Positions 480-28,081 of a stretch of DNA of 64,000 nt are shown one piece after another (the first letter of the stretch is position 1; every line of letters begins with the position of its first letter). Source of the stretch: Anaerolineae bacterium (GTDB lineage: Bacteria > Chloroflexota > Anaerolineae > Promineifilales > Promineifilaceae). The notes beneath the pieces were generated by a model. The model saw only the letters and a list, made by a program, of their open reading frames with translations, had not been told where the DNA came from and searched no databases. Location of the stretch: the NCBI GenBank assembly GCA_023954475.1, contig JAMLHW010000018.1, forward strand, positions 1 to 64,000. Reading direction: 5' to 3'. Both the position numbers and the translations under genes were made by a program.

Positions 480-3155
480 TCAAGGCGTTTCCAGCCCATA
501 ACCAAACGGGAACAGAACGGCTTCATCGGTGATGGTCGTGAAATCCAGCGGCAGTTGATCGGCGCTGAGCGGCCATGTGAATGCCGTCTTGCCCGTAAAC
601 GGCTTGTCGCCGAACAACACATCCGCCACACCCTGCCCTTCTGTCCCCGGCAACCACGCGGCAACCAGAGCATCCCAGTCGGCGACGCGGTCGGCAATCA
701 GCAGCGGACGGCCAGACACCAGCACGACGGCAAGTTGATCACATGTTTCGGCCAGCCGGTTGACGGTGCGCAGATCGGTGACGGGTAAACGCAAGGTCTC
801 GCTGTCACCGACACCTTCGGCATATGGCTCTTCACCAACCACCCCGATACAGACGATCGGCTCGTCTGCGTCGATGTCGCCAAATTGCGCGTATTGGTTG
901 TAGATGACATTGGTTTCGGCCGAAACCGCGTTTTGAATCCCTTCCAAAATGGTCGTGCCTGGTGTGATGGCGCCCTTTTTGCCCTGCCACTCAATCGTCC
1001 AGCCGCCGGACTGTATACCGATGTCATCGGCGGCCGCACCGGCCACGTACAAAGTCGGCAAATCTTTGGCCAATGGCAGCAAATCACCGTCATTTTTGAG
1101 CAATACCTGCGACTGTGCCACAGCATCCCGCGCAACGGCGCGATGCGCTTCTGATCCGACCAGCGGCACTAGATTCGGGTCGGAGTACGGATGTTCAAAC
1201 AAACCCAGCGCAAATTTCACGGATAAAATGTTACTGACTGCTTCGTCAATGCGCTCCAGTGACACATCGCCATTGGCAACCGCTTCGGTCAACGTATCGA
1301 TAAACATGTCCGCGTCATACGGCACCATGTTCATGTCGACGCCGGCGTTGATCGACTGCACCACGGCGGTATAGTAGTCGGGATCGACCTGATCAATACC
1401 GGCCCAGTCGGACACGATAAAGCCGTCAAAACCGAGTTCTTCGCGCAGCACATCGGTGATCAGATAATCTTGTCCGTGCATTTTCATGCCATCCCAACTG
1501 GAGTAGGAAATCATGATATTTTGCGCACCGGCTTCGATCACGGCGGCATACGGCGGCAGGTGGACGGCGCGTAGCGTTGCTTCATCGACTTCGGTAACGC
1601 CCTGATCGATCAGGTAATCGCCGGTGGTGGAACTGCCCCACGCTGTGCCGCCATCGCCGACGTAGTGCTTTGGCGTGCTGAGCACAGTATCGGGCGCGGC
1701 GAGATCGTCACCTTGCAGCCCTTGTAGATAGGCGCTCGCCAGTGATGAGACAATGTCGGTGTTTTCGCTGTAGCTTTCGTAGGTGCGACCCCAGCGGATG
1801 TCCTGCGTCACCGGGACGGCGGGCGCGTAATTCCAGTAGATGCCGGTGGCGATCATTTCCTGTGCGGTAATTCGGCCGATTTCGGTCATCAATTCCGGAT
1901 TGTTAGCCGCGCCCAGCCCGACATTGTGCGGAAACACGACAGCGCCATACACATTCGCGTGTCCGTGCACCGCATCAACCCCATAAATGAGGGGAATGGC
2001 GAGACTGGTTTGCAATGCCTGTGCCTGGAAGCCGTCAACCATTTCAGCCCACGCTTCGACGGTGTTGGTGTCCGGCGAACCGCCGCCACCACTCAAAATG
2101 CCACCGAGATATTTGTTAGTGATGTCGTTGCCACGAACGCTGCCTTTCTCAATCAAGGTCATCTGGCCGATTTTTTCTTCTAGTGACATACGCGACAGCA
2201 AATTGGCAACACGCATTTCGATCGGCAATTCCGGATTCTTGTACGGTGAGTCGGGGTCAGCCGGAACCTGTGTCGGCAGCGGTGTTGGCACCGGCGGCTG
2301 CACAACGACGCTGTCCTGACCGATTTCGTAGAAGATCAGCTGTCCGAACACACTCGGATCGCGATAGGAGTTGTCCGCCATATCGGCCGCTGACCAGATG
2401 GATTTCTGGTTGCGATCAGCTTCATTGGCTCCGTTCAAATGGGCCTGAAAGCCGATAACGTTGCCGTGTGTGTCGGCTATGTTCCAGACGGTATTTTGCA
2501 GCGGAACGGCCAGTTCGACCGCATACCCGCGCTCGGTTGCGACCACAACAGCTTGCGCATCTGCGGTTTCGTTTTGTATACCACCAAAGATCACGTCGTC
2601 TGCATTTCGGCCGATATTGAGCGGCGGAACCGTGATTTGAGCGACGCCGTTGACGTATTCGCCCAAGTCGAGATCGCCGGCCGCATTGATATAAAACTCG
2701 ACCGAATCCTCATTCCAGTATTCGGTTCCGTGCTGGTCTGTAATAATGATCGGATCGATGACATCGGCCATCATGTACAGATATTGGTCGTCCGCCGCAG
2801 CGGCAAACGTCATGGTTGTATCCCAGGCGACGACGGATGTGTCGGGTATCGTGACCCGTGGCACGCCTGCCCAATCGCTCAAATCGCCGTCCAGGGTCAT
2901 GGTCATCGGGAATGGGGCATAATACGTTTCGTTAGGCTCACCGGCGGGAGCGAGGTTACCCGATTCGGCCGAAACCTCGGCAACCTCCGCTGCTTCCTCT
3001 GTGGCCGTGGGCGCGACCGTGGGTGTATCTGCCGGGTCTGAAGCCGTTGCCGGCTCGGTTGCAGCGAGCGGCGTGACGGTTTCGCTGCCGTTGCTACATG
3101 CAACCAGCAGCATCAGCAACAATACGATCAGAAGATAGCTGTGTTTGTTTCTCAT
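480..3155 (-). CDS. Glycoside hydrolase family 3 beta-glucosidase lipoprotein with N-terminal CBM9-like domain
   Basis: Predicted exported beta-glucosidase (891 residues) that would release glucose from beta-glucan oligosaccharides. Residues 1-20 form a lipoprotein signal with lipobox LVAC (Cys20). A Thr/Ala/Pro/Glu-rich linker follows. Residues about 84-275 look like a CBM9/DOMON-type carbohydrate-binding domain (LDGDLSDWAGVP, YWNEDSVEFYINAAGD). From about 305 to the end is a GH3 barrel and C-terminal domain: KHYVGDGG holds the conserved Lys-His (496-497) and GFIVSDWAGIDQV holds the catalytic nucleophile Asp583. The start ATG is preceded by GGTGAGGGAG. With the two GH16 genes upstream on the same strand it makes a plausible laminarin-type pathway: GH16 enzymes cut the chain, GH3 finishes the oligomers. 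Confidence 0.92.
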   Translation of the reverse strand: MRNKHSYLLIVLLLMLLVACSNGSETVTPLAATEPATASDPADTPTVAPTATEEAAEVAEVSAESGNLAPAGEPNETYYAPFPMTMTLDGDLSDWAGVPRVTIPDTSVVAWDTTMTFAAAADDQYLYMMADVIDPIIITDQHGTEYWNEDSVEFYINAAGDLDLGEYVNGVAQITVPPLNIGRNADDVIFGGIQNETADAQAVVVATERGYAVELAVPLQNTVWNIADTHGNVIGFQAHLNGANEADRNQKSIWSAADMADNSYRDPSVFGQLIFYEIGQDSVVVQPPVPTPLPTQVPADPDSPYKNPELPIEMRVANLLSRMSLEEKIGQMTLIEKGSVRGNDITNKYLGGILSGGGGSPDTNTVEAWAEMVDGFQAQALQTSLAIPLIYGVDAVHGHANVYGAVVFPHNVGLGAANNPELMTEIGRITAQEMIATGIYWNYAPAVPVTQDIRWGRTYESYSENTDIVSSLASAYLQGLQGDDLAAPDTVLSTPKHYVGDGGTAWGSSTTGDYLIDQGVTEVDEATLRAVHLPPYAAVIEAGAQNIMISYSSWDGMKMHGQDYLITDVLREELGFDGFIVSDWAGIDQVDPDYYTAVVQSINAGVDMNMVPYDADMFIDTLTEAVANGDVSLERIDEAVSNILSVKFALGLFEHPYSDPNLVPLVGSEAHRAVARDAVAQSQVLLKNDGDLLPLAKDLPTLYVAGAAADDIGIQSGGWTIEWQGKKGAITPGTTILEGIQNAVSAETNVIYNQYAQFGDIDADEPIVCIGVVGEEPYAEGVGDSETLRLPVTDLRTVNRLAETCDQLAVVLVSGRPLLIADRVADWDALVAAWLPGTEGQGVADVLFGDKPFTGKTAFTWPLSADQLPLDFTTITDEAVLFPFGYGLETP

Positions 3156-3389: not shown

Positions 3390-6300
3390 CTACCGAATCC
3401 GTTTGCTATTAAAAGCAATACCCACCATCAGCAAGCCGACAAGGGCAACAAGCAGCAACGGAACCAACCAGATGTTGGCGCTGCCGTTCAGACTCGACAA
3501 GTTAGCTGAAGTCGGTGCCTGATTGACAACCACAATCGGCCCATGTGTCGTCGTCGTACCGTCTGTGGCGACAGCAACCAACCAGTAATTGAGTGTACCG
3601 ACCGGTGCAGTCGCATCGACCAGTGCATAACTGCTGCCTGTACCGGCGGAACTCGTCGATGCGATCAGGTTTTCGTTAACCTGAACACCATCAGCGAATG
3701 CGCCCGCGCTGCGAATCACATTGAAGCCGGCGTTGTCAACTTCGGCGCTGGTCACCCATTCGACCAAAACGGAACCATCCGCTTGTGGTTCGGCCGAAAA
3801 GTCATCCAACTCAATAGCAGTGGGAATGCCGGTAACGAGACGGATTTGATCGAGCATGAACTCACCGGCTACCTGCGGATTACGGTCACCACTGTCGGGC
3901 ATTTGGAAACCATAGCCCCAAACCTCGTTCAGTCCAAGGCCATCATTCGGCGCATTGTCCGGCTGCGTAGCGCTGCGGGTGAATCCGATAAATGGCAATG
4001 TGATCTGCTGCCATCCCGTGAAGTCATCGACAAAGGTCGCATCGAACCGTTCGGCCGAATTCGGGGCTTGATATACCCGCACATAGTCGACCAGCGTCTC
4101 CTGCGGGAACGTCAGATCAGGGCTTATGGATCCACCAAAGTTGCCGCCGATGGCGAAGTTGAGAATCAGGAAGAACGGATGGTTGAACACCCACTCGTTC
4201 GGTGCCACGTCGGCCGGTATGGCATTGTGATAGTTGATGCCATCCACGTACCAATGAATCTCATCCGGTGTCCATTCGATTGTGAACGTATGGTATTCAT
4301 TGGCAACAGGTTCGCCAAAGTCGTAAGTGCCGCCAAAGGACGAGCCGCCGGAGTAACCAGGGCCGTGAATCGTGCCGAATATTTCGTTCGGGACACGGCT
4401 GACATATTCCATAATGTCAATTTCACCGGTCTGGGGCCATCCGACCTCACCGATGTCTGTGCCGAGCGACCAGAACGCCGGCCAGAGACCATCTTCGCCC
4501 GTCGGCATCTTCATGCGCGACTCAATGCGGCCGTACTCGAATTCTGATTTGTACCACGTGATGAGGCGTGCCGATGTGTATTCACACGGGCCGTAGTAGC
4601 AGATGAGATCCGTATCTTCGGGAAGTTGGTCAAGGGTAATAACGAGATTACCGTCGCCGTCTGTTGAAGCATTGGCCGGATCGTCGGTGTAGAACTCGAA
4701 TTCTGCGTTACCCCATCCCGGATTGTCATTGAGCGTGCCGTCACCAATCTCGTGTGTCCACTTTGTCGGATCAGGCGGCGTGCCTGCCGGCGTGTTGAAC
4801 TCGTCAGACCAGACCATGACCCATTCATCAGGTGGTGTTTCGGCCGTTGTCGCTGCCTGGTTGTCTTGCAGTTCAAACGTATAGGTTTCGCCTGAATTGC
4901 TGCCGTAGAACCAGAAGCTGATGCCGTCGTACAGGCTCCAATCCTCTGGGCCGACAAATGTCGTGCCAAACCCGGCCGGTCCATTATCGGTATTGTAAGA
5001 TCCGTCAAGCACCTGCTCGTATGTCCCTTGTCCGGGCAGTGCGTCCGGATCGCCGGCCATGAGTTCGGTGATGTCGAGCGTGATGTCGCCGTAGGTTTGC
5101 ATGTTGTGGAAACCTTCAAAGTCATTGATCAGGGTTTCATCTTCCGGATCATCATCGAGGATGTTGAGAACCGTTTGACGACGGAAGCCCAGTTCAGCGT
5201 TTTCGGCCGAATACAATACCAGCATGAGGTTACGGTCGCCGTCGTGTTTGGCGTTGTCAAACGTCTCGACGGTGAACGAGGCAGCCGTTTCGCCCGGAGC
5301 AAAGACCAGTTCACCGGCAACAGGTGTGAAGTCGCGATAAGGAATCGCATAACTTTCGGCCGAAGCATAGGTAACCGTAACTGCTTCCGTCGCCGACATA
5401 TTGAGCGTTACCGTAATCGTCGCTGTTTCGCCTTCCACTACCTCATAGTCGCTGAGTTCGTATTGCGCTGTCAGCGGCACATCAGCACCGGAGTTGCCCC
5501 AGACCGAAAAGTCATCGTAGTAGTAATTGTTTGTGCCCATATCGACTGAGCCGTAACCACCAATGGCATAGCCATGAACTTCAGTCAGGTTAAAGCCGTC
5601 ATTGGGTGCACCGTTGCCAATTTCCTTGCGCGTGAATTCGTCCCAGGTGAATTGGAAGAATTGCCAACCGTCAAAGTCATCGGGAATATCAATGCTCCAC
5701 CGTTCGGCGTCATCGACTGTGGAATCGGGATTGCGATTGTCGAGAACATCGACAAACAATGTGCCGCCCGTATTGTTGCCATACAACCAGAAGCAAACAC
5801 CTTGATACCCTTCCCAATCGACCGATACCCATTCATCAACCGTTTCGTTTGTAAAAGCGTTGACAAAGACAGCAAAAGCACCTGGTGGCAACGTATTCAG
5901 TTCATCGAGTACGTTGTTATCGGCCGGTGCACCAGGAACCTGGGTTGGTGGCGTATCCGTTATCGATGCTTCAATAGAGCCACCGCCACCGGCAACCGTG
6001 AAGTAGCCGACCGGTATGCCGTTCGGATCCGTGCCGGATGGCAACTCACCATCTTCAAAGTCGTCGACGACATCGACACGCACCACAAGGCTTACATCGT
6101 CGATATAGTAATCATTGTCCATCGGTGCTGCGCCGAAACCGCCAAACGCGTAGCCGTGCACTTCGGTCAGGTTGAAGCCGTCATTGGGAGCGCCGTTGCC
6201 CACATCTTTACGAACAAATTCGTCCCAACCGATCTCGAAATATTGCCAACCATCAAAGTCGTCATTGATGTCGTAGACAAATCGCTCGGCATCATCCGTA

Positions 6301-8702
6301 GTGGAGCCGGGATTGCGGTTGTCGAGAATATCGACAAATATCACGCCGCCGGTGTTATTGCCGTACAGCCAAAAACCAAATCCGGAATAACTGCTCCAAT
6401 CCTGTGGAACCCATTGGTCAGCCGTCTCATTCGTGAATTTGTAAGAAAAACCGGCGAATGATCCGGGCGTGACGAAGAGATGTTCTTGCAGTGCTTTATT
6501 ACCTGCGGCCGAACCGGGCACAGGCGCAGGCAATGTTTCCGTTATGGCAAGAGAAACGGTTGACGAACCGCCGGCAAAGTAATCATAGCCCACTGTGTTG
6601 CCGTCGGGATCCGTGCCGCTGAAGATCTCACCTGTCTGGTAATCCTGAATGATGACGTTTTTGCCGGACGGCGTGTCGGTTTCATCGTCACCGATGATCA
6701 GTGTCGCCGGATTGGGGTTGCCCAGTTCCGCATTTTCGGCATCGGAGAGAGTCAGAATGACAGTGCGTGCATCGTCGTTTTCATCATTATCGAACGTTTC
6801 GACAGTGAACGCTTGTTCCGTAACGCCGGGTGCAAAGACGAGTTGACCGCTCGTAGCGGTGTAATCACTTCCTGCGACTGCTGTGCCATCGCTGGTAGCG
6901 TAGGTGACGGTCACAGTTTCGGCCGAAAAAGTGGTCAACGCCGCGGTAATGGTAGCCGTGTTGCCTTCCATCACATTGAATTCACTGCTTGCAAAAGCAA
7001 CCTTGAGCGTCACATTACCTGCATCGCCAAATACACTGAACATATCCAACACGAGCGAACCGCTCGAAACAGGCAATGGATAAGCCCAGGCCCGGATATC
7101 GATCAAGTTGAGGCCGTCATCCGGTGCTCCCGGCTCCTGGAACCCACCGCGCACAAACGTCGACCAGGGAGCAACAATTAGCTGCCAACCATCGAAGTTG
7201 TCTTCAAATGTATGCACGAAGCGCTCGACAACCGGGTTGCCGGGCGTCCCGTCCTGTATTTCAAACGTAAACGTGTCACCGGAATTGTGGCCATAGAACC
7301 AATATGTAATTCCATCCAGATCACTCCAATCGCGCCCTTCCGCAAACGTCGCGCCAAAGCCGCCGAAACCGACACCGCCACCTGCAATGTCGAATGTACC
7401 GGAAATAATGCCATTGTCGCCTACTTGTCCAGGCTGCGCATATGGAGAATCATCGGCTACAGTTGCCAACGCGGGATTGACCGTACCCCCATATTGGAAC
7501 CAGCCCGGCGGATAATCCGGATCAAAGTCAGCAAACGGATCAATGTTGGTCACTTCAATGTTGTCCAGCATAAATTCACCGGAACTGACCGGCAGAGGGA
7601 ATACCCACGCTTTGATAGCATTCAACTGGAAGCCGTTATCCGGTGCACCGGGGTCCTGGAAATCGCCCCGGACAAACGTCGAAAATGGAATCAAGATAGT
7701 GCGCCAACCGGTAAAATCATCGACAAACAGCCCGTGGAAGCGTTCGACAACCGGATCGGAACCATCCTGAGCTTCAAATGTGTAGGTCAGCCCACTGTTG
7801 TTGCCAAAGAAATCAAATGTAATCGCCTGATAATCCGTCCAATCCTGACTGGGTAGCAAGGCACCAAAGCCACCAAAACCGGCTCCCGCAACGTCGTAGG
7901 TGACAGACAACACGTCGTTGCCGTCGATGTTGATCACGTTGGCATTGACTATACTCGAATAGACGAACCAATCGGCCGGAAAACCGCCTTCAAAATCAGC
8001 CACCACAGGTGGGAACTCGCCGATTGTCGGCTCGCCTGCCGTGAACGCAAACAGGTCGAAATCAACTTCAACGGTTGAACCGGAGCCGCCGACAACGCCG
8101 CTAATCACGATCACAACTTCGTCCAGATTGCCGTTAAACGTACCGTCGCCACCGGTAAACAGGTTGATAAAACTACTGACCGGCGCACTGATTTGAGTCC
8201 ATTGATCATCGAACTCGGCACTGGTGAAGACCGTATCCAAGCGGAAAGAGTCTTCCTCGCCATCTGTCCAACCGTTACCGTCAAGGTCTTCACGAATCGT
8301 GATTTCGAGTGTGTATTGGTCGACTGTCGCATTGCTCTGGTTATACACCCAAACTGAGAACCAGGGATCGGCCGGCGGTACAACTTGTGCTGCATTGTCA
8401 AAGTTATTGAAAGCGCCACCGTAAAAGCCACTTGCTGTCCCTTCACCACCCCAACCGGTGCTGAGATAATAACTGCCTTCGTATGGATGGTCGTCGAGGA
8501 CACCGCCACCGCCGCCGGCAGCGTTGCCACCGAAAAAGAGCCAATCGGCCGAATCGCCGTCTTCAAAATCATCGATGATGGTGAGTTCGGCTACTGGTTC
8601 GGCCGAAACTCTGGTACTACCCATGGCCCCCATCAGCGCAAAAACGCCGAGCAGGACAACGGCCAGCGCTGCCAAAATAACAAACAATCTATTGCTTTTC
8701 AT
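3390..8702 (-). CDS. Giant surface protein: CBM-like modules, two Calx-beta domains and a GH16 beta-glucanase nested in the last CBM
   Basis: 1770-residue secreted, cell-anchored beta-glucanase. Residues 1-34 are a signal peptide. Four kinds of module follow: 40-222 a jelly-roll-like domain; 230-387 and 395-558 related CBM11/CIA30-like modules (FVDDFTGW, DNFDGWQ); 565-674 Calx-beta; 680-875 and 876-1068 another pair of related modules; 1075-1187 a second Calx-beta; then a further CBM-like module split into 1190-1282 and 1548-1624. Between those halves lies GH16 (about 1290-1545) with the catalytic GEIDIME motif (Glu1427 and Glu1432). A fibronectin-like region (VLVEWVTSAEVDNAGFNVI) precedes a C-terminal membrane segment (about 1743-1763) and a basic tail NSKRIR, consistent with membrane or sorting anchorage. 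Start ATG has GGAGAAT upstream. Substrate (laminarin, mixed-linkage glucan or other) is inferred from the GH16 subtype only. Confidence 0.9.
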   Translation of the reverse strand: MKSNRLFVILAALAVVLLGVFALMGAMGSTRVSAEPVAELTIIDDFEDGDSADWLFFGGNAAGGGGGVLDDHPYEGSYYLSTGWGGEGTASGFYGGAFNNFDNAAQVVPPADPWFSVWVYNQSNATVDQYTLEITIREDLDGNGWTDGEEDSFRLDTVFTSAEFDDQWTQISAPVSSFINLFTGGDGTFNGNLDEVVIVISGVVGGSGSTVEVDFDLFAFTAGEPTIGEFPPVVADFEGGFPADWFVYSSIVNANVINIDGNDVLSVTYDVAGAGFGGFGALLPSQDWTDYQAITFDFFGNNSGLTYTFEAQDGSDPVVERFHGLFVDDFTGWRTILIPFSTFVRGDFQDPGAPDNGFQLNAIKAWVFPLPVSSGEFMLDNIEVTNIDPFADFDPDYPPGWFQYGGTVNPALATVADDSPYAQPGQVGDNGIISGTFDIAGGGVGFGGFGATFAEGRDWSDLDGITYWFYGHNSGDTFTFEIQDGTPGNPVVERFVHTFEDNFDGWQLIVAPWSTFVRGGFQEPGAPDDGLNLIDIRAWAYPLPVSSGSLVLDMFSVFGDAGNVTLKVAFASSEFNVMEGNTATITAALTTFSAETVTVTYATSDGTAVAGSDYTATSGQLVFAPGVTEQAFTVETFDNDENDDARTVILTLSDAENAELGNPNPATLIIGDDETDTPSGKNVIIQDYQTGEIFSGTDPDGNTVGYDYFAGGSSTVSLAITETLPAPVPGSAAGNKALQEHLFVTPGSFAGFSYKFTNETADQWVPQDWSSYSGFGFWLYGNNTGGVIFVDILDNRNPGSTTDDAERFVYDINDDFDGWQYFEIGWDEFVRKDVGNGAPNDGFNLTEVHGYAFGGFGAAPMDNDYYIDDVSLVVRVDVVDDFEDGELPSGTDPNGIPVGYFTVAGGGGSIEASITDTPPTQVPGAPADNNVLDELNTLPPGAFAVFVNAFTNETVDEWVSVDWEGYQGVCFWLYGNNTGGTLFVDVLDNRNPDSTVDDAERWSIDIPDDFDGWQFFQFTWDEFTRKEIGNGAPNDGFNLTEVHGYAIGGYGSVDMGTNNYYYDDFSVWGNSGADVPLTAQYELSDYEVVEGETATITVTLNMSATEAVTVTYASAESYAIPYRDFTPVAGELVFAPGETAASFTVETFDNAKHDGDRNLMLVLYSAENAELGFRRQTVLNILDDDPEDETLINDFEGFHNMQTYGDITLDITELMAGDPDALPGQGTYEQVLDGSYNTDNGPAGFGTTFVGPEDWSLYDGISFWFYGSNSGETYTFELQDNQAATTAETPPDEWVMVWSDEFNTPAGTPPDPTKWTHEIGDGTLNDNPGWGNAEFEFYTDDPANASTDGDGNLVITLDQLPEDTDLICYYGPCEYTSARLITWYKSEFEYGRIESRMKMPTGEDGLWPAFWSLGTDIGEVGWPQTGEIDIMEYVSRVPNEIFGTIHGPGYSGGSSFGGTYDFGEPVANEYHTFTIEWTPDEIHWYVDGINYHNAIPADVAPNEWVFNHPFFLILNFAIGGNFGGSISPDLTFPQETLVDYVRVYQAPNSAERFDATFVDDFTGWQQITLPFIGFTRSATQPDNAPNDGLGLNEVWGYGFQMPDSGDRNPQVAGEFMLDQIRLVTGIPTAIELDDFSAEPQADGSVLVEWVTSAEVDNAGFNVIRSAGAFADGVQVNENLIASTSSAGTGSSYALVDATAPVGTLNYWLVAVATDGTTTTHGPIVVVNQAPTSANLSSLNGSANIWLVPLLLVALVGLLMVGIAFNSKRIR

Positions 8703-8774: not shown

Positions 8775-9635
8775 CTATTGTTGAGTTTGATATACCCGCA
8801 CATAGTCAACCAACATACGCTGCGGAAAGACGGTCGATTCATCCGGATACCCCGGCCACAGACCACCAACGGCGACATTTAACAGAATGAAAAAGGGTTG
8901 ATCATAGACCCATTCACCGGGCACATCGGCGGGCGTCAGCGAAAAATACGGAATACCATCCATGTACCAGCGGATTTCTTCCGGTTCCCACTCAACAGCA
9001 AACTCGTGAAAATCGGCCGAATAAGGTTCACCTGCCAGATAACGGCTGGCTCCAATCCCATTCCCGCCGGAATACCCCGGACCGTGAACTGTCCCATGGA
9101 TCATCTGTGGCTCTCGGCCGATGTTTTCCATGATGTCAATTTCGCCACTCGTCGGCCAACTTACCGTTGTGATGCTATCGCCAAGCATCCAGAAAGCAGG
9201 CCAGATGCCCTGCCCTTCCGGAATGCGAATGCGTGCTTCAATCCGGCCATATTGCCACGATTGCAATCCCTGTGTTTTGAGACGCGCAGACGTGTGATCC
9301 TGGTTGACAAAACGCTCTTGTCGCGCCTCGATGACAAGCATCCCATCTTCAATACGCGCGTTTTCAGGTCGGTCTGTATACGTTTGAGCTTCAGAATTGC
9401 CCCATCCGTTGCCACCGATATCAAATTTCCAGTTGTCGTGATCAATGTCGGGACCATCAAACTCATCGTGCCAGACCAGATTCCATCCCTCTCGTTGCCA
9501 TTCAGGGGTTGCAGTTGGTTGCGGGGTCGGTGCAGGAGTTAGTGTGGGGATCGCAGGTGAGGCTTGGGCTCCACAGGCAACCATCAGTGCCATCGAACCC
9601 AGTATAAAAATCAATACTTTGAGATGCTTACTCAC
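8775..9635 (-). CDS. GH16 family endo-beta-glucanase lipoprotein
   Basis: Compact one-domain GH16 enzyme. I place the start at GTG 9635 (286 residues) because GGGAG lies six bases upstream and this gives a short, normal lipoprotein signal ending in LMVAC; an in-frame start 17 codons upstream gives an odd N-terminus. A Pro/Thr-rich linker precedes the catalytic domain, whose GEIDIMENIG motif supplies the nucleophile and acid/base (Glu165 and Glu170). It ends in DYVRVYQ, as does the GH16 domain of the neighbouring giant protein, so the two are paralogous catalytic units, one free and one modular. It is divergent from the LacI-type regulator and shares its operator region. Confidence 0.9.
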   Translation of the reverse strand: MSKHLKVLIFILGSMALMVACGAQASPAIPTLTPAPTPQPTATPEWQREGWNLVWHDEFDGPDIDHDNWKFDIGGNGWGNSEAQTYTDRPENARIEDGMLVIEARQERFVNQDHTSARLKTQGLQSWQYGRIEARIRIPEGQGIWPAFWMLGDSITTVSWPTSGEIDIMENIGREPQMIHGTVHGPGYSGGNGIGASRYLAGEPYSADFHEFAVEWEPEEIRWYMDGIPYFSLTPADVPGEWVYDQPFFILLNVAVGGLWPGYPDESTVFPQRMLVDYVRVYQTQQ

Positions 9636-9696
9636 AGCATGCTCCCAACGCCTGCTTGTAATCGCTTTCGATATATTGGCGGACAATGACGAGAAG

Positions 9697-9711: not shown

Positions 9712-9818
9712 CAATAATAGCATTGGATAGGTTGTCAGTCAAGCTATGTCTTGACAATTTTGTTGCTAAACGATACCGCGTTGCTCTGATTTGGGACACC
9801 AAACGACGGTATTCCATT

Positions 9819-9847
9819 TTGTATGAAAACGCTTTCTATGTTACATT
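9819..9847 (+). promoter_or_regulatory. lacI-type regulator promoter with operator site 2 between -35 and -10
   Basis: A candidate -35 TTGTAT (9819-9824) and -10 TACATT (9842-9847) are separated by 17 bp. The spacer is almost entirely filled by the operator-like palindrome TGAAAACGCTTTCTA (9824-9838), which equals the reverse complement of site 1 with one mismatch. This is the geometry expected for autorepression. The two sites are 127 bp apart centre to centre, compatible with a repression loop. Confidence 0.6.
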
Positions 9848-9869
9848 ATCAAAAAGGGATAATTCGCGC

Positions 9870-10892
9870 ATGGCAGCAAGTAAAGAACGCATCACTATTC
9901 AGGACATCGCCGAGCAATCCGGTGTATCAATCAGCACCGTTTCACGCGTGTTGAGTGGCAACGCGGGTGTCACGGAACCGAAACGTCAAGCCGTTTTAGC
10001 TGCGGTAGACAAGCTGGATTATCGGCCGAATCTCTTTGCACAAGGTCTGGCGAGTGGTCAGTCGATGTCGATCGGCGTCATGACCCAGAATTTCGGCAGC
10101 GCTTTCTATGACGCCATCCTGCGCGGTATCATCGCCGGTGTCGAAAAGAGCAACTATTCCCCTTTGTTTGCTGATGGCCGCTGGCGCACCGATATTGAAA
10201 GGCGCGCCCTGCAAACACTGCTGAATCGGCGCGTTGACGCCCTGATCCTGCTGGGAACCCAACTCGATAGCGACGATCTGCTCGATCTCAAAAAGCAAAT
10301 GCCTCTGGTGATCGTTTCGCGCTCCGTTGCCGGCCTCGAACAAAACTGCCTCGTCGTTGATAACTACAAAGCCAGTTTCCAAGCTACAACCCACCTGCTC
10401 GACCGCGGACACCAGCATATAGCCCATATCACGGGTGCTTTGTCGGAGTCCAATGTATTGCGCGACGGCGCACAACGCCTGGCCGGTTATCAGGATGCCT
10501 TGCGCAAGGCAGGCATTGAACCATCCCCAAAGCTCGTTGTGGAAGGCAGTTTTCGATCCCAATCCGGTTTGCTGGCAATTGAGACGCTATTGACACGTGG
10601 CAAACCGTTTAGCGCCATTTTTGCGGCCAATGACCAAATGGCGACAGGCGCACGGCTTGGCTTGTACCGGCGGGGAATCCGCGTACCGGACGATGTATCG
10701 TTAATTGGTTTTGACGACCAGCCTCACTCAGCCTACATGACGCCACCTCTGACGACGGTGCGACAACCGGCCGAAGAGATGGGGTTGATGGCAGCGCAGG
10801 CTGTGCTTAATCAATTGCAAGGCAAGCCTTTTGCGTTGCCCATGGTTTCGGCCGAATTAATCGTGCGCGAATCAGTCAAACACATTTACTGA
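9870..10892 (+). CDS. LacI-family transcriptional regulator
   Basis: 340-residue repressor of the LacI/GalR family. The N-terminus has the classical helix-turn-helix (ITIQDIAEQSGVSISTVSRVLSG) and hinge helix (LDYRPNLFAQGLASG), followed by a periplasmic-binding-protein-like sugar sensor domain (ANDQMATGARLGLYRRGIRVPDDVSLIGFDD). I chose ATG 9870 because it gives a normal family N-terminus and has AAGGGA upstream; the 49-codon extension in the same frame runs through the promoter. Divergent orientation to the GH16 gene and the paired operators make it the likely local regulator of beta-glucan use, probably released by a glucan oligosaccharide. The conserved YRPN motif is encoded across a TCGGCCGA palindrome. 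Confidence 0.92.
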   Translation: MAASKERITIQDIAEQSGVSISTVSRVLSGNAGVTEPKRQAVLAAVDKLDYRPNLFAQGLASGQSMSIGVMTQNFGSAFYDAILRGIIAGVEKSNYSPLFADGRWRTDIERRALQTLLNRRVDALILLGTQLDSDDLLDLKKQMPLVIVSRSVAGLEQNCLVVDNYKASFQATTHLLDRGHQHIAHITGALSESNVLRDGAQRLAGYQDALRKAGIEPSPKLVVEGSFRSQSGLLAIETLLTRGKPFSAIFAANDQMATGARLGLYRRGIRVPDDVSLIGFDDQPHSAYMTPPLTTVRQPAEEMGLMAAQAVLNQLQGKPFALPMVSAELIVRESVKHIY

Positions 10893-26863: not shown

Positions 26864-28081
26864 CAGGGCAATTGCATTCTATTTGCCAAATAGGATTTTC
26901 TCCATGTAGGTATTGTCCCAGCCAGCCTTCAATCGTTTGACAGCGATACTGGCTTTGACCGAGTCTTCCTGCCGAATGAGATTGAGCGCCCAACGGCGCA
27001 GAGCCGCCATGTTTTCTTGGCCATTGCCTTTTCGCAATCGGCTTTCATCCTCGCGAAACGCAATATCCAGTACCCAATGCACTTTGTTTTCAACGCCCCA
27101 GTGTGAGCGTGTGGCGGCCAAGATGTGTTGAGCGTCAGGCTCCAATGATGTGATGTAGTAACGCGTATCTGGTTTACGGCGCTTATCATCCGTTGAGCGT
27201 CGTCCGGTCACTTTGACAATACTTCGTAGTTCAGGCCAATGATGTTTGCGACGCAAAAAAGCTAACCATTCCGGGTCAGCGATAACCCAACAACGACGTA
27301 TCTCAACGCGACCATGTCCTTTGCTAACCTGGTCGACATAATCCATATTCGGTTGGTCGAAGTTGTCAGCATTTGCAAAATGAAACAGATGGTCAACATC
27401 TTCGAAAAGTGTGCCTTGATTCTTTTTCAAGGCGAGTAAGTAATCTCCCTCCAGGTCAATCACTTGTCGTGCTATCTCACGCTGACAGCCCATGGCATCA
27501 ATTGTTACGATACACCCTTTCAACAACAACATATCCAACAGGTGTGGTATTGCAGTGATTTCATTCGACTTGGCGTCGACTTTCACCTGGCCCAATACCA
27601 GGCGATTCGCCTCAGACCAGGCATTGACCATGCGAATTGCGCCCTTTTTGCCCCCTTTTGTAAAGGCACGACGAATTGCCTTGCCGTCAATTGCAATGAT
27701 GTCGCCACCACTCATTTCTTGGACATCGCTGATCCATTGCATGAAACTGTTTTGGAGTTGTACAGGATCGAGTAGCAAGAATACTCGGCGGAAAGTATAT
27801 TGTGTTGGAACACCATGCGGCATTTCTAAAAACTGGCGAAACCAGCTTTCCTTACTCCTGGCATATTCTTCAACTGCTGGCCAGCTATCCGCGTGAGCAA
27901 TCACCGCACACAACGCTATAGTAATGACCGTGATCAGTGGATGACGAGTACCTTCTCGTCGTCTTGGATCCTCAACTTCTTCAAAGTAATCTGCGATAGG
28001 AGCGGTTCGATTTGGAAACATTGGTACATACCTCGGTTTCCTCTAAAACTACTCTGTTATTTTGAGAATGCAATTGCCCTG
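26864..28081. mobile_element. Complete ISAs1-family insertion sequence (1218 bp)
   Basis: The element is bounded by 17-bp perfect terminal inverted repeats CAGGGCAATTGCATTCT (26864-26880 and, inverted, 28065-28081). It carries one intact transposase gene on the minus strand and is flanked by the exact 8-bp duplication GATCAACT. All parts needed for movement look undamaged, so the insertion is probably recent. It lies in the gap between the DUF4203-like gene and the K+ channel gene without breaking either, though it may have separated the channel gene from upstream control sequence. It contains no TCGGCCGA palindrome. Confidence 0.94.
26879..28021 (-). CDS. ISAs1-family transposase
   Basis: 380-residue DDE-type transposase of the ISAs1 (H-repeat-like) family. 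The N-terminal region (IADYFEEVEDPRRREGTRHPLITVITIALCAVIAHADSW in part) and the conserved blocks GDIIAIDGKAIRR, IVTIDAMGCQREIA and DYLLALKKNQGTL carry the first two Asp; the Glu-containing block includes RSHWGVENKVHWVLDIAFREDESR. The stop codon overlaps the left inverted repeat, as is common for compact IS elements. The gene is full length without frameshift. Confidence 0.95.
   Translation of the reverse strand: MFPNRTAPIADYFEEVEDPRRREGTRHPLITVITIALCAVIAHADSWPAVEEYARSKESWFRQFLEMPHGVPTQYTFRRVFLLLDPVQLQNSFMQWISDVQEMSGGDIIAIDGKAIRRAFTKGGKKGAIRMVNAWSEANRLVLGQVKVDAKSNEITAIPHLLDMLLLKGCIVTIDAMGCQREIARQVIDLEGDYLLALKKNQGTLFEDVDHLFHFANADNFDQPNMDYVDQVSKGHGRVEIRRCWVIADPEWLAFLRRKHHWPELRSIVKVTGRRSTDDKRRKPDTRYYITSLEPDAQHILAATRSHWGVENKVHWVLDIAFREDESRLRKGNGQENMAALRRWALNLIRQEDSVKASIAVKRLKAGWDNTYMEKILFGK

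Follow-up and report, generated by a model that had tools for sequence, protein, structure and literature searches.

Carbohydrate-active enzymes are usually pictured as beads on a string, with their carbohydrate-binding modules (CBMs) on flexible linkers. A nested pair involving GH16 is found in GluXyn-1 (PDB 1AXK), which we take to be an engineered construct whose GH16 domain receives its partner; unlike the case described here, it is neither natural nor built into a CBM. Discontinuous arrangements of glycosidase and CBM occur in many genomes in the GH10 xylanases of the Xyn10C/Pm25 type, where CBM4 modules lie inside the GH10 domain (PMC7848910), and the catalytic domain of EngU, a GH148 beta-glucanase, is split by a CBM4 (PMC5725463). 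In TgLaforin, a CBM20 is split by disordered inserts and retains sugar binding, the phosphatase domain being separate (PMC9254107). The present protein shares with Xyn10C/Pm25 the discontinuous architecture in many genomes and with EngU the splitting of one domain by another module, but the nesting is reversed, the catalytic domain being whole and the CBM split. As in TgLaforin, the interrupted CBM appears to fold as one module, whereas its insert is an enzyme domain rather than a disordered segment. CBMs inside enzymes have thus already been published, while a glycosidase inside a CBM is a variant for which our search of open-access text, where absence is weak evidence, found no earlier report.

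The split module is related to the CBM11 of Clostridium thermocellum Lic26A-Cel5E (CtCBM11; 1V0A, 6R31), which has the fold of an intact sister module from the same chain, and both halves of the split module match Pfam CBM_11. CtCBM11 is, however, uninterrupted and has its ligand residues intact, whereas the host module is split and lacks a conserved aromatic. The insert shares the fold, the catalytic motif and 42-51% identity with GH16_3 laminarinases (Nocardiopsis 2HYK, Cellulosimicrobium 3ATG, Thermotoga 3AZX, Pyrococcus 2VY0), in whose entries the catalytic domain, unlike the insert, does not lie within another module.

The window, i.e., the whole stretch of 64,000 nucleotides that was analyzed, contains the gene as a single frame without internal stops. 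Its layout is as follows, the signal sequence, the C-terminal domain and the anchor being readings of the sequence.

3390..8702 (-), whole open reading frame, 1,770 aa, running from a secretion signal through sugar-binding modules, Calx-beta domains, the nested module and a C-terminal domain to a membrane anchor
8601..8702 (-), N-terminal signal sequence, residues about 1-34, hydrophobic stretch LFVILAALAVVLLGVFALMGAMG
7539..8018 (-), CBM11 module 2, uninterrupted, residues 229-388, modelled alone, CtCBM11 match Z 19.5
7017..7547 (-), CBM11 module 3, uninterrupted, residues 386-562
6684..7004 (-), Calx-beta domain 1, residues 567-673, from Pfam
6063..6656 (-), CBM11 module 4, uninterrupted, residues 683-880
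5475..6077 (-), CBM11 module 5, uninterrupted, residues 876-1076
5145..5474 (-), Calx-beta domain 2, residues about 1077-1186, boundaries approximate, from Pfam
4857..5138 (-), host CBM11, first half, residues 1189-1282, strands 1-7, CBM_11 positions 13-103
4059..4856 (-), insert, residues 1283-1548, a laminarinase-type GH16_3 domain with a short linker on either side
3831..4058 (-), host CBM11, second half, residues 1549-1624, strands 8-11, CBM_11 positions 111-180
3483..3830 (-), C-terminal domain, probably Fn3-like, residues 1625-1740
3393..3476 (-), C-terminal hydrophobic segment and basic tail, likely membrane anchor, residues 1743-1770

Pfam recognizes in this frame six stretches of CBM_11 (E 4.6e-57), one GH16 (1.4e-21) and two Calx-beta domains, and has no match for the C-terminal domain. 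Residues about 38-228 (8019-8591, minus strand) make up an N-terminal region that resembles a further beta-sandwich module but that the CBM11 module profile used does not recognize. The signal sequence together with the C-terminal hydrophobic anchor suggests that the product is a surface protein.

The original prediction held that the last CBM-like module ends its first half at FELQDNQ, near residue 1281, and restarts near 1549, the same segments being joined directly in the sister modules. The module alignment bears this out: FELQDNQ occupies residues 1276-1282, SAERFDATF begins at 1549, and FEAQDGSDPVVERFHGLFVDDFTGWR is continuous in module 2. Searched alone, the first half (94 aa) matches the CBM_11 profile with E 3.7e-6 and the second (76 aa) with E 6.3e-10, while the two joined give one contiguous match over positions 13-181 of 182 (E 6.7e-20), with a score far above that of either half. 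The segment between them is GH16 by Pfam (E 5.7e-23). The same insertion site is found in 49 distinct proteins, nearly all from Chloroflexota, which rules out coincidence; across these, 6-13 residues link the first half to GH16 and about 1-8 residues link GH16 to the second half, the exact split depending on the profile boundaries. That a complete GH16 domain lies inside one CBM11 module can therefore be regarded as practically certain.

An AlphaFold2 model of residues 1189-1636, obtained with an alignment of 32 nested sequences, has a mean pLDDT of 88.9 and a pTM of 0.85 and shows one split module of 11 CBM strands, 7 before and 4 after GH16. Module 2, modelled separately (pLDDT 95.5, pTM 0.90), has the identical 11-strand order, and in it the insertion site, the strand 7-8 junction, is a tight turn between adjacent strands. 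The whole GH16 domain thus sits in a turn of the CBM, in keeping with the surface loop that had been predicted, and the model does not resolve into two complete separate domains. Module 2 superimposes on CtCBM11 (6R31) over 156 aligned residues with an rmsd of 2.3, so that the CBM11 jelly roll is a direct fold match for the sister, and for the host a match in strand order only; in the fold search with the nested model, matches to the GH16 domain took up the whole list. A pTM of 0.85 is not normally reached by a two-domain model of unknown relative placement. This value and the short linkers speak for a fixed orientation of GH16 relative to the CBM, and a rigid mounting of GH16 on the host is plausible.

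Against the Nocardiopsis endo-beta-1,3-glucanase 2HYK the inserted domain scores Z 36.0, with an rmsd of 1.3 and 51% identity over 235 residues, and beta-1,3-glucanases are also the top matches of a PDB profile search with the nested query (E 4.8e-102). The catalytic motif GEIDIME is intact, as E1427-x-D1429-x-x-E1432 (E239, D241 and E244 in fragment numbering), and its E, D and E are invariant in 32/32 aligned sequences. The GH16_3 laminarinase motif has been given as WPA...WXX...WPX, with A, K, R, M or L as the third X (PMC6827312). The insert shows WPA and WP (WPAFWSLG...GWPQTGEIDIME), with Q as the third X. Sequence family, jelly-roll fold and the E-x-D-x-x-E motif all place the domain in GH16 and GH16_3, and the protein is probably a secreted, membrane-anchored, multimodular endo-beta-1,3-glucanase.

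Does the host still bind sugar? We take the ligand contacts of CtCBM11 to be Tyr53, Asp99, Arg126, Asp128, Tyr129, Asp146 and Tyr152, with Tyr53 presumably stacking on the ligand. Tyr151, probably the Tyr152 of this list, has been located in the cleft (PMC5686792). An aromatic that is conserved in 88 of 89 intact sister modules is found in none of the 49 hosts, and a motif comparison independent of the alignment gives mostly [WFY][AG]GFTHAF in the sisters and mostly [AP]AxFxRxF in the hosts. The lost aromatic aligns with Tyr53 under two of three aligner settings, HMMER's own alignment putting it elsewhere, and module 2 aligns with CtCBM11 without gaps from Tyr53 to Asp64; on this alignment evidence it is probably the counterpart of Tyr53. 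The other contacts are altered as well. Where CtCBM11 has Asp99, Thr or Ser is found in most hosts; Arg126 has an Arg counterpart in 0/49 hosts (and is mostly matched by Lys in the sisters as well), and Trp stands at the Asp146 position in 36/49 hosts versus 12/89 sisters. In the host of the present protein the seven positions, in the order listed above, read P, S, S, T, gap, W and M in two of three alignments.

In the host, much of the CBM11 core is retained, as is the match to the CBM_11 profile, but the canonical CtCBM11 ligand residues appear to be absent; as far as sequence can tell, it belongs to CBM11 by family, and canonical CBM11 binding would not be expected of it. Because the hosts have lost the aromatic that the sisters conserve, we read the host as a degenerate mount and the sister CBM11s as the grippers, and it is more likely that sugar binding rests with the four uninterrupted sisters. 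A host with altered binding specificity is also possible. The proposal that the active site is held rigidly next to a glycan-binding face is accordingly plausible in its first part and not supported in its second.

In searches with the nested region as query, where CBM sequence, GH16 and second half all had to be spanned, the nested form was found in 26/52 genomes of the family to which this genome belongs and in 35/396 genomes of the class; nearly all remaining matches in the class were GH16 only, with contig-end fragments among the exceptions. The search of the phylum added three further families, and 15 loci were taken from genome contigs; many families thus retain the arrangement. A contig of 385 kb with 72% GC, from an actinobacterial genome of the phylum of an Acidimicrobiales-labelled assembly, carries one nested protein, and the nested form has probably crossed phyla. 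Two further loci, L041 and L045, also carry Actinomycetota labels, for which mis-binning is possible; at L045 (UBA1383 contig, Actinomycetales-labelled) the nested gene is split at about 8188 into two frames within GH16, by sequencing error or decay. Searches of viral contigs and of plasmids for nested relatives matched the GH16 part alone, no plasmid record reaching 80% query coverage, and of the matches listed by a PDB sequence search with the nested profile, none covers both CBM and GH16. Ordinary tandem CBM11-GH16 proteins occur in the same class (L104, L105, L107-L110), so nesting is one option among several for joining the two domains.

In the CBM11 module tree, a branch with a support of 97 separates all 49 hosts from 97 other modules; when 28 more intact modules are added, among them some copies fetched twice, the support is 98. 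This grouping points to a single insertion. The GH16 tree separates four nested proteins from the other 45, and the AU test of a single nested GH16 clade gives p 0.054 with all rows and 0.027 without long branches. However, a short PGP-type linker shared by these four (closely by three) with one larger nested group favours a common origin. Judged from the trees and linkers, a single old insertion is likely, while the GH16 tree makes two insertions, or a replacement of the GH16 domain, possible. The homologue search suggested with the original prediction recovered the type with the insert, in the 49 proteins, and none of the insert-free host type: a flank-joined profile found no empty site in a sample of mostly GH16-bearing proteins, and the intact modules that it recovered and that were placed in the tree all fall among the sisters, none within the host group.

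We have also considered a recent copying of the insert from the neighbouring GH16 gene, which was rejected since the two, although 50% identical, fall in different GH16 tree groups. A recent insertion was likewise rejected on the similar GC of insert (0.55) and host (0.54-0.56).

Some hosts carry additional inserts. In L012 (about residues 395-500), L017 and L021 (loci of G027, G011 and G049), the host CBM11 is interrupted again between strands 4 and 5, by roughly 100 residues with the pattern C..G.GVVPVV... DVNGDG.DLLFHFR and no clear Pfam family. At the same site L019 (G051) has instead, between ETVLEV and ATFNRDF, some 150 residues that are unrelated and apparently helical, and in L018 the site is without an insert.

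The nested gene has the following neighbours.

480..3155 (-), directly downstream, beta-glucosidase of family GH3 with a CBM9-like domain, probably a lipoprotein, from Pfam
8775..9686 (-), directly upstream, free-standing GH16 protein, probably a lipoprotein, sharing 50% identity with the inserted GH16
9723..10892 (+), divergently oriented regulator of the LacI family, probably acting locally

Well away from the nested gene, at 26879-28021 (minus strand), there is a gene for a DDE transposase (DDE_Tnp_1). In two genomes (L090, L092) GH3 and the nested unit are in a single chain; the very long L090 frame (G206, 2715 aa) has eight stretches of CBM_11 together with Calx-beta and the nested GH16, and carries GH3 at its C-terminus. 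At a further locus, L103 (G308:C1:1372000-1376500), a 913-aa frame (stop to stop) has a GH3 beta-glucosidase fused to a C-terminal plain GH16. The GH3, GH16 and LacI neighbours and the GH3 fusions support a pathway for beta-glucans of the type of laminarin, an algal sugar.

The mechanism that we propose, to which we assign a probability of about 0.58 as a whole, is then as follows. The four uninterrupted CBM11s would keep a chain of beta-glucan close to the cell, while the split CBM11, its own canonical sugar contacts decayed, would serve mainly as a rigid frame that fixes GH16 through both termini, because the enzyme is attached by two short linkers instead of one flexible tether. GH16 would cut laminarin-like chains outside the cell to oligosaccharides, which the neighbouring GH3, controlled by the adjacent LacI regulator, would finish to glucose. 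The observed distribution would follow if GH16 entered one CBM11 of a protein with tandem repeats a single time and the product was then inherited vertically, with some transfer.

Several other readings were weighed against this one. The strongest case can be made for a host that still binds glucan with changed specificity, the nesting serving to line up its cleft and that of GH16 along one chain. In the alignment the insertion turn adjoins the loop with the CtCBM11 Asp99, which we take to be a ligand contact, and the hosts have a WxYxF strand with the Trp enrichment at the Asp146 position; but the loss of the sisters' aromatic in 49/49 hosts, the complete absence of Arg at the Arg126 position and the Thr or Ser at that of Asp99 make this reading rather unlikely. 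It is improbable that the nesting mainly protects or stabilizes GH16, its termini being tied into a jelly roll against unfolding and extracellular proteases with no positional role: the same organisms encode stand-alone GH16 proteins without such a frame, even though both termini are indeed held by short linkers and the tolerance of a second insert by one group of relatives suggests that the host is chiefly a robust scaffold.

The two readings that would dissolve the nested module itself carry very little weight. Two separate complete domains, with flanks that do not form one module and a coincidental sequence pattern, have no observation in their favour and are hardly credible in view of the complementary CBM_11 positions covered by the halves, the 7 + 4 strands that make up those of the intact module, and the retention of the nesting in 49 proteins. 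An artefact of assembly or binning could be suspected from the fact that the relatives are mostly metagenome assemblies and from the frame break in L045, yet dozens of independent assemblies have intact frames with diverged sequence (44-75% identity), and insert and host agree in GC, so that we give this explanation almost no credence.

The rigid mount with gripping sisters therefore remains our preferred reading, and a wider proposal may be put forward tentatively, at somewhat less than even confidence: that these proteins make up a class of natural glycosidases whose CBM, after a single ancient insertion and the later loss of its own binding site, has turned from a sugar binder into a rigid holder of the catalytic domain, a class present in at least 14 Chloroflexota families and in Actinomycetota, with holders that in some lineages took further insertions. 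As a conserved natural case of the reverse nesting, it would permit a direct test of whether a fixed geometry of binding and catalysis matters, and the arrangement may serve as a template for linker-free enzyme design. It also carries the warning that domain annotation hides split modules, since Pfam reports the host as two partial CBM_11 matches. For the Chloroflexota, the nested proteins are a pointer to widespread machinery of laminarin-type degradation.
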